Below are positions 28,311 through 36,481 of a stretch of 64,000 nucleotides of DNA, piece after piece. Every line of letters begins with the position of its first letter. The first letter of the stretch is position 1. The notes under the pieces are model-generated. The model did not search any database, was not told the DNA's origin, and saw only the letters and a program-made list of their open reading frames with translations. Both the position numbers and the translations under genes were made by a program. The DNA comes from Herbidospora daliensis. GTDB taxonomy: Bacteria; Actinomycetota; Actinomycetes; Streptosporangiales; Streptosporangiaceae. The stretch lies in contig NZ_BBXF01000001.1 in assembly GCF_001570585.1 (NCBI RefSeq), positions 1,357,691-1,421,690 on the forward strand, given 5' to 3'.

Positions 28311-29667
28311 GCTCGTCCCAGGCCCGCACCTCTTCCGCCAGGTCGGCCGAGGTCAGCAGGGGCAGGGCCGACCGCACGACGTGGATCTGGCTCCTCAGTC
28401 TCCGGGCGAGCCGGATCTCGTCCGGGGAGCGGCCTGCCAATGCGTGGGCCTCCTCCAGAGACGGGATCGTGGCCAGCCAGCGCGCCACGGCCTCATCCAG
28501 AGACGGAATCGTCACCGGCTGGCGCGTCAGGGCCGCGTCCAGAGACGGATTCACCGCCGACCGGCGGGCTGCGGCCTCATCCAGAGATGAATCCGTCATC
28601 GGCCGACGGGCCACATCCATATCCAGACGTGGATTCACCGCCGGCCGGTAAGCAACAGCCCCATCCACAGGCGGATTCGCCGAAGACCGGCAGGCCACAG
28701 CCTCATCCCGAGACGGATCCGCCACCGGCTGGCGGGCCACATCCATATCCAGACGTGGATTCACCGCCGGCCGGTGGGCAACAGGCGCGTCCAGAGGTGG
28801 ATGCACCGCCGACTGGTGGGCGATGGCCGCATTCAGGGACGGGTTCATGGCCGGTCGGTGGGCGATCGCCGCTCTTAGAGACGGCTGTTCGCCGGCTCCC
28901 TCCAGCAGGGCGCCGATCAGGGTGACGGCGGCGAGGTTGGGGCTGTCGATGCCGCGTTCGGCCGCCTGGCGGTCGAGGGCTAGGCGCAGGAGGAACCAGG
29001 TCGGGTCCTGAGCGGGGTGGAGGGCGACCGTTCGGCGGAGGTGGAACCACCAGTCCTGGTCCGGGACGGGGGCGCGCCGGTCGAGCCAGGCGGCGATCTG
29101 TGATTCGTCGCAGGTGAGCAGGTGCCGGATATAGCCGGCGAACTCCTGGTCGCGGCCGTTGAACCGCCGGTAGACATTGGGACTCGTCGGTGCGAGGATC
29201 TTGAGGACGGTGCCGGGAGGTTCGTCCCACACCTCCGGGTCGAGCTGGACCAGGATGCCCATCCGCGCCGTCGGCTCCCAGTACTCGGCAGTGCCCTCGT
29301 TGACCGGGGTGTCTTCCGTCAAGGTGAACCCTCGGGCCTCCACGGCCTCCCGGAGGTCGGCGAAGTCCAGCCGGGCCGGAAAGGCGCCGTATCGCTCGGT
29401 CAGCACCGGTTCGACGTCGCCGTGTTCGGCGAGGTCGGGCAGGCGGTGGGCCTGAGGGCCGAAATAGAGACACTGCCAGGGATCGCGGCGCCGAGAACGC
29501 CACCAGCCGAACTCGATCAGGCCGAAGTCGTGGATCATGTTGGTCGGCTCGTCGAGCGCGGGACCCCGCCCGAAGACCTCCTCGACCTCCGCCGGGGTGC
29601 TCGTGTGGTCGAGGCCAAGCACGGTTCCGGTCGTCACCAGGTCGGCGAAGAAGTCGAGCCCGCTCAA
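28276..29667 (-). CDS. Unknown protein with eleven 14-residue tandem repeats
   Basis: 463 residues. An N-terminal 260-residue region (FGLIEFGWWRSRRRDPWQ, PQAHRLPDLAEHGDVEPVL, FLLRLALDRQAAERGID) belongs to no family I can name. Residues 263-416 are 11 tandem units of 14 residues, pattern P-S-L-D-x-A-V-A-x-R-P-A-V-N. A 45-residue helical C-terminus follows. The TTG at 29667 is adopted because it overlaps the stop of the upstream small gene (TTGA), a typical coupling; the next in-frame ATG would remove 43 conserved-looking residues. No signal peptide or membrane helix. Repeat number is likely to vary among strains. Confidence 0.7.
   Translation of the reverse strand: MSGLDFFADLVTTGTVLGLDHTSTPAEVEEVFGRGPALDEPTNMIHDFGLIEFGWWRSRRRDPWQCLYFGPQAHRLPDLAEHGDVEPVLTERYGAFPARLDFADLREAVEARGFTLTEDTPVNEGTAEYWEPTARMGILVQLDPEVWDEPPGTVLKILAPTSPNVYRRFNGRDQEFAGYIRHLLTCDESQIAAWLDRRAPVPDQDWWFHLRRTVALHPAQDPTWFLLRLALDRQAAERGIDSPNLAAVTLIGALLEGAGEQPSLRAAIAHRPAMNPSLNAAIAHQSAVHPPLDAPVAHRPAVNPRLDMDVARQPVADPSRDEAVACRSSANPPVDGAVAYRPAVNPRLDMDVARRPMTDSSLDEAAARRSAVNPSLDAALTRQPVTIPSLDEAVARWLATIPSLEEAHALAGRSPDEIRLARRLRSQIHVVRSALPLLTSADLAEEVRAWDELRPALLRGGCR
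28420..28881. repeat. 42-bp minisatellite within the unknown gene
   Basis: Eleven imperfect 42-bp units encode the 14-residue repeats. Some pairs are very close (CCACATCCATATCCAGACG near 28609 and again near 28738), which suggests recent duplication; others have diverged. Confidence 0.85.
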
Positions 29668-31754: not shown

Positions 31755-34208
<2,454 letters not shown>

Positions 34209-34240
34209 GTATGATCTCCTGATTCATCGACACCTGCCCA

Positions 34241-34314
34241 TAAAGAAACCCCCCGGCGCTGAAGCACGAGGGGCGGCCGCGTCGAAGGCTGCTGTCAGCT
34301 CGCTCGACGCGGCC
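34241..34314 (-). promoter_or_regulatory. Candidate transcription attenuator of leuS
   Basis: On the minus strand an 11-bp perfect stem (GGCCGCGTCGA at 34314-34304 with TCGACGCGGCC at 34285-34275) contains the end of the leader frame. It is followed by a C4/G4-based hairpin (about 34274-34248) and TTTCTTT, as in an intrinsic terminator. The alternative antiterminator pairing could not be worked out by eye. Confidence 0.5.
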
Positions 34315-34342
34315 CGGTAAGAAGCAGGTTCGCGGCACGCAT
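34295..34342 (-). CDS. Putative leuS leader peptide (15 aa, three consecutive Leu codons)
   Basis: ATG at 34342 opens MRAANLLLTGPRRAS and stops at 34295. The leucines are CTG CTT CTT; CTT is rare in this GC-rich genome, which fits a sensor of charged tRNA-Leu. The stop lies in the loop of the following hairpin, as in classical amino-acid attenuators. The ribosome-binding site is weak; TACGCT 6 nt before the ATG could be a -10 box of a leaderless message. Confidence 0.5.
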   Translation of the reverse strand: MRAANLLLTGPRRAS

Positions 34343-34534
34343 AGGCCAAGCGTAGCGCAGGAAGCAAGCGGGTTGCGGTCGGCCGCAGACCGACCGCGAC
34401 CCGCGCATCGAATCTGCCCGATCGGACCTGGTCCGACGAATGAGAACGGATCTTACACCGAGAGTAAAGTGGTGATATCGGATGGTGATAGATCCATTGT
34501 GACCTCGGTTGTCCCTTTCGTTTACCCTCATCTC

Positions 34535-36481
34535 GTGAACCCTGTCGACCCGAGGCATGGCCCGGACTTCCCGCAGGCGGACCTTCCGATGCAGGATCCG
34601 CCGACCGACCCCACGGGCGAATCGTTCAGGGGGCTCTTCTCCAGTTTGGCTGCGCCGCCCCCCAGCCCGCATGAGATCATGCCAAGCACGTCTAATTCGG
34701 GCATGATCTCGGGAGGTTCCATGCCCTCGGAGCACAGCGATCCACGGCGCGGCCCGGCCTGGCCGGAAGTCCCGCCAGCCTGGCCCGAGGTGCCGCCGTC
34801 CGCCGCCTCGTACCCGCCGAATCCGGTCGCCCCACCCAACGGCCGGCCTGATCCGGGCCCCTTCGGCGGCCCCGGCCCCTCGCCCGGCGGCTCGTTCCCG
34901 CCCAGCCCGGTCGCCGCGCGGTACGAGCAGCGCCCCGACCACCAGACCGGCCCGCAGAGCCCGCCGATCCCCCAGGCGCAGTTCCAGGAGCACCCGCCGT
35001 TCCCGGTGCCGCCTCCGCCGCCGCCCCCGGTGAGCCCGTTCGGCCCGGCCGACGACTACCCCGCCTTCGGCGCCGCGCAGGCGCAGGATTTCCCGCCCGT
35101 CAGGGCCGGCAGCGGGCCGGTGTTCCCCCCTCCGATGACCCCGCCGGGCTTCCCCGAGCAGCAGCAGCCCGCGCGGCAGCCCGCTCGCGCGAACACGGGC
35201 CCCGGTTTCCCCGAGCTTCCTCCGGAGGAGGGGCCCTGGGCCTCGGCGCCCAACGTCTTCCCGCGTGCCGACGACCGCAACCCGTCGTTCCCGCCGCGCC
35301 CGGTCGAGCCCGGCCCGCCGCCGCAGCAACAGCAACAGCAGCAGCAGCAGCAGCCGTTCTCCTACCAGGAGCCGGCCACCACGTTCGGCACCCCGCGCGG
35401 CCCGTTCGACCCGCGTGTGCCCCAGCCGCCGATGGACCAGCAGCCGTTCCCGCCGGTCCAGGCGCAGGCCCAGGCCGCGCCCCCGCAGCCGGCTCCCCCG
35501 CTGAACCCGCCCGTGACCCCGCCGATGAACGCCCCGATGAACCAGCCCGCGCAGCAGCAGCAGCAGCCGCAGCACGGCTACGGCGGGCCCACCACGGGCG
35601 AGCACCTGGTGCAGCAGCTTCCCGGCGACGACCCTTACAAGCCGTTCGTCACGGCGGGCCAGATCAGCGGCCCGAAGACGCCCCCGGCGGCCCGGCAGCA
35701 GGAGCTGTGGGAGACCGTGTGGGGCGACGGTCAGCACACGACCGACGATGACGACGACGACGAGAAGGGCAAGCCGGTCTGGCTGTTCGCGCTCGTCGGC
35801 TCGGTGCTGGTCGCGCTGATCGTGGCGCTGCTGTGGGCGTTCCTGGCCGGGCCGCTCAGCTCGGCCGCCGAGACCACCGCGGTGCCGTCGGGCAAGCCCT
35901 CGGCCAAGCCGACGTCCACCAAGCCGGCGGCGGCCGCCTCCGGCGGCATCCCTGAGTACGACGGCGAGAAGTCGGCCGTCAAGGGGACCGTCACCGACGA
36001 GACGGCCGGGATCTCGGTCTCGCAGCTCGGCGGCCAGTGGAAGACCGACGCCGACACCCAGACGGTGATGTCGACCTACGGCTACTCCACCCGCCAGTTC
36101 GTCAGCGCCGGGCTCACCTCCAAGGGCAAGCCGTGGTTCGCCACGGTCATGACCGGCAAGCTGCCGGACGACCTGGCCTCGCAGTACAAGTCGCCGACCG
36201 ACATGCGGCCGGTGCTGAACAGCGTGGTGTTCAAGGCCCGGCAGAACATCTTCCCGAAGCCCAACAAGGTCGCCAGGGTCGGCGCGCAGAAGCTGCCCGG
36301 CGGCCTGGGCCAGGCCGCCGCCTACAAGGTGACCGACGACGGCGGCGGGACCCTGGTCGTGGTGGCCGCGGTGAACACCGGCGCCGAGGTCCCGTCGATC
36401 GTCTACATGCAGGTTCCCGATCTGCGCGACGACCTGCTGCCCGACGTCAACACGATCATCGACTCGATCAAGAAGTCCTAG
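34535..36481 (+). CDS. Pro/Gln-rich single-pass membrane protein, unknown
   Basis: About 648 residues from GTG 34535 (start inferred). Roughly 420 N-terminal residues are disordered and rich in Pro, Gln and Gly, with a run of 10 Gln near 35327-35355. A short acidic run (six Asp) leads to one membrane helix, WLFALVGSVLVALIVALLWAFLAG. The C-terminal 190 residues lie outside: a Ser/Lys/Pro stalk, then a compact domain (ISVSQLGGQWKT, FVSAGLTSKGKPWFATVM) of no family I recognise. TACCCT, 6 nt before the GTG, could be a -10 box of a leaderless transcript. Divergent from leuS. The last 4 bases overlap the convergent P450 gene. Confidence 0.75.
   Translation: MNPVDPRHGPDFPQADLPMQDPPTDPTGESFRGLFSSLAAPPPSPHEIMPSTSNSGMISGGSMPSEHSDPRRGPAWPEVPPAWPEVPPSAASYPPNPVAPPNGRPDPGPFGGPGPSPGGSFPPSPVAARYEQRPDHQTGPQSPPIPQAQFQEHPPFPVPPPPPPPVSPFGPADDYPAFGAAQAQDFPPVRAGSGPVFPPPMTPPGFPEQQQPARQPARANTGPGFPELPPEEGPWASAPNVFPRADDRNPSFPPRPVEPGPPPQQQQQQQQQQPFSYQEPATTFGTPRGPFDPRVPQPPMDQQPFPPVQAQAQAAPPQPAPPLNPPVTPPMNAPMNQPAQQQQQPQHGYGGPTTGEHLVQQLPGDDPYKPFVTAGQISGPKTPPAARQQELWETVWGDGQHTTDDDDDDEKGKPVWLFALVGSVLVALIVALLWAFLAGPLSSAAETTAVPSGKPSAKPTSTKPAAAASGGIPEYDGEKSAVKGTVTDETAGISVSQLGGQWKTDADTQTVMSTYGYSTRQFVSAGLTSKGKPWFATVMTGKLPDDLASQYKSPTDMRPVLNSVVFKARQNIFPKPNKVARVGAQKLPGGLGQAAAYKVTDDGGGTLVVVAAVNTGAEVPSIVYMQVPDLRDDLLPDVNTIIDSIKKS

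Follow-up and report, generated by a model that had tools for sequence, protein, structure and literature searches.

The window, a stretch of 64,000 nucleotides from an 8.5-Mb actinomycete genome, carries a leuS gene preceded by a short leader region. The gene (31755–34208, minus strand) starts with GTG and encodes a leucyl-tRNA synthetase of 817 aa (NCBIfam TIGR00396, 937 bits; cut-off 548); an AGGAG Shine-Dalgarno sequence is read directly at 34216–34220. Among the named matches listed, the first 250 residues of this LeuS show 87% identity with Nonomuraea, 85% with Thermoactinospora, 83% with Streptosporangium and 81–82% with Actinomadura. All elements of the leader lie on the minus strand, in the order TACGCT, six bases, ATG, leader open reading frame (ORF), a first hairpin (H1), a second hairpin (T), TTTCTTT, 33 nt and the leuS GTG. 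Positions 34241–34342 span the leader ORF, both hairpins and the U-tract.

The leader ORF (34295–34342) comprises 15 codons and encodes the peptide MRAANLLLTGPRRAS, with its ATG at 34342, 134 bp before the leuS GTG at 34208, and its TGA stop at 34297–34295. Leu6 to Leu8 are read in this ORF from CTG CTT CTT (34319–34327), the putative control codons, referred to below as Leu1, Leu2 and Leu3. A spacer of 5 nt (34314–34318), which has the same length in 51 of 51 aligned leaders, separates the third Leu codon from the conserved core of H1. H1 (34275–34314) is an 11-bp perfect stem with the arms GGCCGCGTCGA (34314–34304) and TCGACGCGGCC (34285–34275), the last base of the spacer, 34314, being also able to pair as the outermost pair of H1. 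The leader stop codon sits in the H1 loop. T (34248–34274), an intrinsic-terminator-like GC hairpin with a fold of −16.8 kcal/mol, follows directly after H1 and leads into an interrupted U-tract, TTTCTTT, at 34242–34248, which is read directly and has T-rich counterparts at the same place in related leaders. The initial annotation had described the 15-codon frame with its Leu triplet, the stop codon inside an 11-bp perfect hairpin and the second GC hairpin followed by TTTCTTT, and all of these parts are there.

With regard to the window alone, the evidence is uneven. ORFs of 6–20 codons with three consecutive Leu codons occur three times in the 64-kb window, against 0–1 in each of 10 dinucleotide shuffles, so the leader ORF by itself carries little weight. 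The fold of the 141-nt region is modestly better than that of shuffles (z = −2.5, with 5 of 200 shuffles as good). Simple consensus scans of positions 34100–34700 found neither a promoter nor a terminator, because the U-tract is interrupted and the promoter falls short of the full sigma-70 consensus, and no Rfam family, T-box or other, matched at its gathering score anywhere in the window. A covariance model built from 51 leaders, R1, of which the window leader is itself one row, assigns 81.8 bits (E = 8.4e-19) to the leader site, the next matches in the window having E values of 0.1 and 0.16. A second short Leu-run ORF, MGLLLTGRR followed by a stop codon, is located at 28664 on the minus strand; it has no R1 match and probably arose by chance.

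The upstream regions of leuS were collected from seven genomes of the genus, from the family and from 80 loci of named records. The same or nearly the same leader peptide with three consecutive Leu codons is present in 7 of 7 genomes of the genus. In the family, 142 of 150 genomes have a LeuS match at E ≤ 1e-40, and 90 loci representing 66 genera were fetched. A total of 73 candidate leader rows was obtained, of which 66 were kept because they combine a run of three Leu codons with a T that folds at better than −10 kcal/mol; the counts of 66 leave out L030, L035, L051, L059, L067, L076 and L140, and L051 and L067 exhibit no recognised T. T ends within 115 nt in 63 of the 66 leaders, and 51 of these 63 make up alignment A1 after removal of near-duplicates. 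The third Leu codon is CTT in 59 of the 66 leaders, compared with 1.6% of the Leu codons in the 5' parts of the leuS genes that follow (579 Leu codons, counted over codons 1–200 of leuS in the related loci used), which confirms the rarity attributed to this codon.

R1 matches 65 of the 90 family loci at E ≤ 0.001, in 46 of the 66 genera, many of these loci being rows of the model; two of the 46 genera match weakly, with the ORF start lost (L129–L131, L133), and the family search gave no match in 25 of the 90 loci (20 of the 66 genera). Among the named records, 78 of the 80 loci were searched, L006 and L069 having no upstream DNA, and 21 match, 13 of which are model rows. These include Thermoactinospora, Nonomuraea, Streptosporangium, Actinomadura, Nocardioides, Arthrobacter, Pseudarthrobacter, Microlunatus and, weakly, Cellulosimicrobium; none of L071–L081 (11 loci, two from Eggerthellaceae and nine from other phyla) is matched. 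In a sample of the class, matches at E ≤ 0.01 were found in 170 of 296 genomes and 77 of 105 genera, a total that includes leaders of ilvB and cimA. The best 30 of these class loci were fetched, and all lie ahead of leuS, with Streptomyces-like genomes among them. In a sample of the phylum, 17 of 246 match at E ≤ 1e-6, 14 of them in the class; two of the three others lie before leuS and one before a leuA-like gene, identified by eye, whose protein is 30% identical to CimA. Alignment across related genera, which the initial annotation had proposed as a check, finds that many genera of the class have kept the Leu triplet and both hairpins. The device is widespread in actinomycetes, and its layout is strikingly constant.

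Both hairpins are supported by covariation. In the 51-row alignment, 91.7% of the cells are paired and 13 of 19 pairs are changed on both sides; the covariation score is 0.321 compared with 0.201 in shuffles, none of 500 shuffles reaches any of five measures, and all six slid versions of the structure are far lower (39–51% paired). For H1, there is at least one sequence for 8 of 11 pairs in which both partners differ and still pair, and 91.5% of the cells are paired, while T exhibits 5 of 8 pairs changed on both sides and 91.9% of cells paired. Leaders ending LLLT or LLLS directly before the stop still have the H1 core, GCCGCG/CGCGGC, even though the core there coincides with the stop codon or lies past it. 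The Pro-Arg that often follows the Leu run is therefore best attributed to a constraint on the RNA and not on the peptide.

The spacing between these elements is just as constrained. In the 51 aligned leaders, the number of unpaired nucleotides between H1 and T is 0 in 25, 1 in 24 and 2 in 2. When the ends of H1 are set by folding each leader, the spacer measures 3–5 nt in 63 of 66 leaders and the H1–T gap −1 to 2 nt in 65 of 66, the folding-set H1 end sharing one base with T in 10 of 66. The length of the H1 loop is free, from 4 to 26 nt in the alignment. Outside the alignment, L150, L157 and L175 have long insertions in this loop, with the arms and the closeness to T kept. Conservation carries the case far beyond chance: the leuS leader is real and conserved, and very probably a leucine attenuator.

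The leader transcript probably begins with the leader ORF itself. A −10-like box, TACGCT (34349–34354), lies 6 nt upstream of the window leader ATG, and each of the 66 leaders has a TANNNT that ends 6–7 nt ahead of its start codon (200 mononucleotide shuffles: mean 2.7, maximum 7). An SD-like tetramer precedes the ORF in just one of the 66, and the window leader has no Shine-Dalgarno site. The natural reading would be that transcription starts at or beside the ATG and that the ORF is leaderless; the position of TANNNT and the published leaderless start of S. lividans leuL2 are the grounds for reading the leuS leader in this way. The start signals just before the leader speak against a transcription start downstream of 34295, which had been considered as a way to refute the attenuator, and a further start is possible.

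The same chassis is found in front of other genes. The weaker R1 matches were fetched for 20 genomes, and the downstream genes were assigned by tblastn, NCBIfam and by eye: of 20 loci, 11 lie before cimA, two before leuS, six before ilvB and one before leuA. The ilvB leaders (L266, L267, L273, L276, L279 and L282) exhibit Ile-Leu-Val codons and the same layout of spacer, H1 and T. Their downstream genes are acetolactate synthase large subunits according to NCBIfam in L266, L267, L276 and L279 (partial proteins, below the cut-offs), and L273 and L282 were read by eye. The L279 leader, VRTRILVVMQRAG, resembles the published ilvL of S. lividans. The genome carrying the window has a cimA leader of its own, MFNGLLIIGRRAG (L257, G000:C4:446353-446451, minus strand), with H1, T and Ile codons, and its downstream gene is a citramalate synthase (TIGR00977, 607 bits; cut-off 450). 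In alignment A2, which comprises 11 of 12 cimA leaders (in L271, left out, the model match does not start at the start codon), the last Ile codon lies 5 nt from the H1 core in 10 of 11.

A model of the cimA leader matches 116 of 196 genomes of the class at E ≤ 1e-5, a total that includes some leuS and ilvB leaders. In each of its best 30 loci, a leader with Ile codons lies 118–228 nt ahead of cimA. A title search of the literature found no report of an actinobacterial cimA leader. As a separate observation, cimA leaders such as L264, L265, L275, L291 and L294 exhibit a conserved GTGGCACACT-like sequence ending 6–7 nt before the start, a promoter look different from that of leuS. Two leaders on this chassis precede leuA or a similar gene: MTNLLLT in L272, where the downstream protein is a 37% match to CimA and a 2-isopropylmalate synthase by NCBIfam, and MSQNLLLT in L285, before a leuA-like gene identified by eye. 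Both peptides end directly at the stop codon. Since Leu-Leu-Leu is found at leuS, Ile at cimA and Ile-Leu-Val at ilvB, codon-specific control is favoured; that the control codons follow the pathway on a fixed scaffold is the strongest argument for it that the sequences offer. One layout thus links leuS, ilvB and cimA.

Attenuators of leuS were predicted in S. avermitilis and S. coelicolor in 2005 by Seliverstov et al. (PMC1262725), who class these Streptomyces leaders as classical attenuators that have both an antiterminator and a terminator hairpin. The S. lividans leuL2 peptide, MRAVRLLLSEPR, was placed by RNA-seq in 2021 and reported as leaderless (PMC8079986). The doubt expressed in the initial annotation as to whether a leuS attenuator had been described is removed by these two reports. 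The Streptomyces attenuators have in common with the window leader the position before leuS, a Leu-run leader peptide, hairpins and a U-tract, and the Streptomyces-like loci fetched here exhibit the same Leu-run pattern, spacer, H1 and T; these loci are probably from Streptomyces, as the peptide in L233 is identical to leuL2. They belong to another family, and the window peptide runs three residues past the shared Pro-Arg. In contrast to the 2005 description, which includes an antiterminator hairpin, H1 is conserved here and no conserved alternative pairing to T was found.

The leuS attenuator is therefore not new as a kind; what is added here is the rigid geometry, the lack of a visible antiterminator and the codons that follow the pathway. 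Lopatovskaya et al. (2010; Mol Biol 44:128) may already extend leuS attenuators beyond Streptomyces. The Streptomyces leuS leader is one case of a device that occurs in much of the class and that the covariance model finds.

The LEU element of actinobacterial leuA likewise comprises a leader ORF with a Leu run, but it is described as a pseudoknot in which the run pairs with the leuA Shine-Dalgarno sequence (PMC1262725), and the chassis leaders of L272 and L285 are unlike it. In the ilvB-II motif of Corynebacterium, a uORF lies over hairpin P1, hairpin P2 is a terminator with a U-tract, and the proposed antiterminator consists of the lower P2 strand and the P1 loop (PMC10272879); the equivalent pairing is not above chance in the leuS leaders. 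The ilvB1 leader of M. tuberculosis, compared here by its published description, shares a run of amino-acid codons in the leader ORF and a terminator with a U-tract, and differs in gene and codons. In that leader, a ribosome at the stop codon is said to mask the antiterminator, mutually exclusive hairpins are predicted, and replacing the regulatory codons by Ala codons gave low, uninducible expression (PMC13236596). The latter result implies that a ribosome at the stop codon means termination, which agrees with the polarity favoured below for leuS. For the ilvB leader of S. coelicolor, codon substitutions without effect on regulation are cited in PMC1262725, so the published codon tests of ilvB disagree, and the geometry shared by these leaders offers a frame for comparing them.

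In our view, with a probability of about two in three, the leader attenuates transcription by means of the ribosome, matching leuS to the charged leucyl-tRNA available, and includes a switch between H1 and T. The ribosome would load on the leaderless 5' end and meet CTG CTT CTT. When leucyl-tRNA is plentiful, it would reach the stop codon and cover much of the 5' arm of H1, so that T could form alone and RNA polymerase would stop before leuS. When leucyl-tRNA is scarce, the ribosome would wait at Leu1 or Leu2, shortly before H1; the hairpin left folded, 0–2 nt from the base of T, would then keep T from zipping up in the RNA exit channel and allow readthrough into leuS. Leucine would probably be the signal and T the terminator.

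The extent to which a ribosome would open H1 was estimated with a footprint of 26 nt, the estimate used in PMC13236596. Out of a mean of 10.8 H1 pairs in 66 leaders, 0.7 are lost with the ribosome on Leu1, 3.6 on Leu2, 6.5 on Leu3 and 8.4 at the stop codon, and at least 6 pairs are lost in 0, 0, 60 and 59 of the 66 leaders, respectively. From these losses, a stall on Leu1 or Leu2 keeps most of H1, whereas a stall on Leu3 and a ribosome at the stop codon both break it. The window leader would lose 1, 4, 7 and 6 of its 11 pairs at the same four positions. This speaks against the favoured model in one respect, as a stall on Leu3, the most CTT-biased codon, would look like a ribosome at the stop codon in the window leader. 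In the late-stop leaders L003, L142, L151, L154, L157 and L204, a ribosome at the stop codon breaks only 0–3 H1 pairs.

H1 and T are compatible in the free RNA, so the proposed clash between them has no basis in base pairing; the fixed abutment of the two hairpins would suggest a steric switch. A more specific proposal is that a single chassis, made up of a leaderless codon run, the 5-nt spacer, H1 and a terminator adjoining it, serves leuS, ilvB, cimA and in places leuA with no base-paired antiterminator, the folded H1 blocking T sterically within the RNA exit channel. We regard this version as tentative, and doubtful as a whole. If it is true, the signal would be carried by distance and not by complementarity, and an untranslated leader would lead to readthrough and not to termination.

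The first rival to this attenuator model is a switch of the trp type, in which a stalled ribosome breaks H1 and the 3' arm or loop of H1 pairs with T as an antiterminator. It agrees with the published prediction for leuS of S. avermitilis and S. coelicolor, and a stall on Leu3 would open much of H1. The folding energies of 63 leaders point the other way: the mean cost of losing T is 13.9 kcal/mol with the ribosome on Leu1, 13.9 on Leu2, 10.5 on Leu3 and 8.9 at the stop codon (14.7, 14.7, 11.7 and 9.1 kcal/mol in the window leader). The cost is thus higher when stalled than at the stop, the reverse of the E. coli trp, thr and leu controls, where the stalled cost is clearly below that at the stop (for trp, about 3.5–6 against about 12 kcal/mol). 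The E. coli his control is weak, with 16.9–19.5 kcal/mol stalled, about 20 at the stop and a lowest value of 13.0 beyond it. All four E. coli leaders share with the leuS leaders a leader peptide with regulatory codons before a terminator; trp, thr and leu, and weakly his, exhibit a base-paired alternative to the terminator when stalled, which the leuS leaders as a group do not.

Complementarity between the H1 3' arm and the T 5' arm, and between the H1 loop and the T 3' arm, is at or below that of shuffles, and no conserved base-paired alternative to T in the leucine-stalled state was found among the 63 leaders by folding energies. With the stalled cost above the stop cost and no extra complementarity, either the switch does not operate by alternative pairing, or it works through something that these methods fail to detect. 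On the other side, the cost of losing T falls below 3 kcal/mol at some footprint position in 18 of 63 leaders, for example −0.5 kcal/mol in L143, 0.2 in L003 and 2.2 in the window leader; in the free RNA, it is below 3 kcal/mol in 8 of 63. Taken together, a trp-type switch is unlikely, with perhaps a little more than one chance in five. Of the attenuation layout named by the initial annotation, the ribosome-mediated part remains the best reading for leuS, but the leader is not clearly of the trp type, since H1 is nearly intact with the ribosome on Leu1. Folding, which the annotation had suggested as a check, revealed no base-paired antiterminator that is conserved. That none is visible in 63 leaders turns the way in which these attenuators switch into a concrete, testable question.

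Two other pairings exceed shuffles. The stretch of Leu codons pairs with the 3' arm of T (13.65 compared with 11.92, sd 0.30), and, with a smaller excess, the leader 5' end pairs with the 3' arm of H1 (12.27 compared with 11.29, sd 0.35). The former is probably a by-product of the pyrimidine-rich Leu codons, as CTC would pair better than the favoured CTT and a stalled ribosome would cover the stretch; it may act when the leader is untranslated. A pairing of the Leu codons with GGGCAGG past the terminator, in the minimum free energy fold of the window region, is kept in only part of the relatives. The equilibrium probability of T with the ribosome masked, with means of 0.91–0.97 in all states, was dropped as an argument against an antiterminator because T is favoured in the E. 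coli controls too, so the measure does not discriminate.

Alternatively, H1 could mainly serve to pause transcription until the first ribosome has caught up, control being exerted through pausing. The first hairpins of the E. coli his and trp leaders are pause hairpins of this kind. In 37 of 51 leaders, a U and then a G follow 10–11 nt after the H1 stem, compared with 9.4 on average and never more than 19 when the loops were shuffled 500 times, and this spacing resembles that of hairpin pauses. Nevertheless, the excess may not mean pausing, as the letters of the T loop are constrained by T and the leaders are related, and pausing alone does not decide termination. Pausing as the main role of H1 has, in our estimate, odds of about one in five. 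It is compatible with the attenuator model, in which the conserved U-G may give the ribosome time.

It could also be that the leader is translated without codon control of leuS, T setting a constant readthrough fraction or tracking the rate of translation or growth. Leaderless ORFs respond to general ribosome supply, which would fit this view, as would the S. coelicolor ilvB substitutions cited above. Against it, codon identity tracks the downstream pathway in three groups of genes, and CTT prevails at Leu3; the absence of codon control is accordingly improbable. Finally, a chance ORF next to two ordinary GC-rich hairpins, to which the three Leu-run ORFs of the window and its modest fold could point, is refuted by the conservation and covariation across the class and hardly deserves further consideration.

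In sister genera, the leader appears to decay stepwise. Two Leu codons are left in L123, L126, L138, L153 and L198 and one in L149; the start is lost and the U-tract degraded in L129 and L133, and the model gives no match in L120, L122, L134 and L136. Under trp-type rules, an untranslated leader with a strong T would starve an essential gene. As T looks weakened where the leader is untranslated, the decay does not decide between the models. A different kind of change is seen at loci where the same leader precedes a LeuS only 38–41% identical to that of the window over the part compared (L228, L232, L233, L235, L243, L245, L247, L249 and L251–L256, Streptomyces-like genomes among them), which suggests that the leader was kept while the enzyme behind it was exchanged or underwent an ancient divergence.
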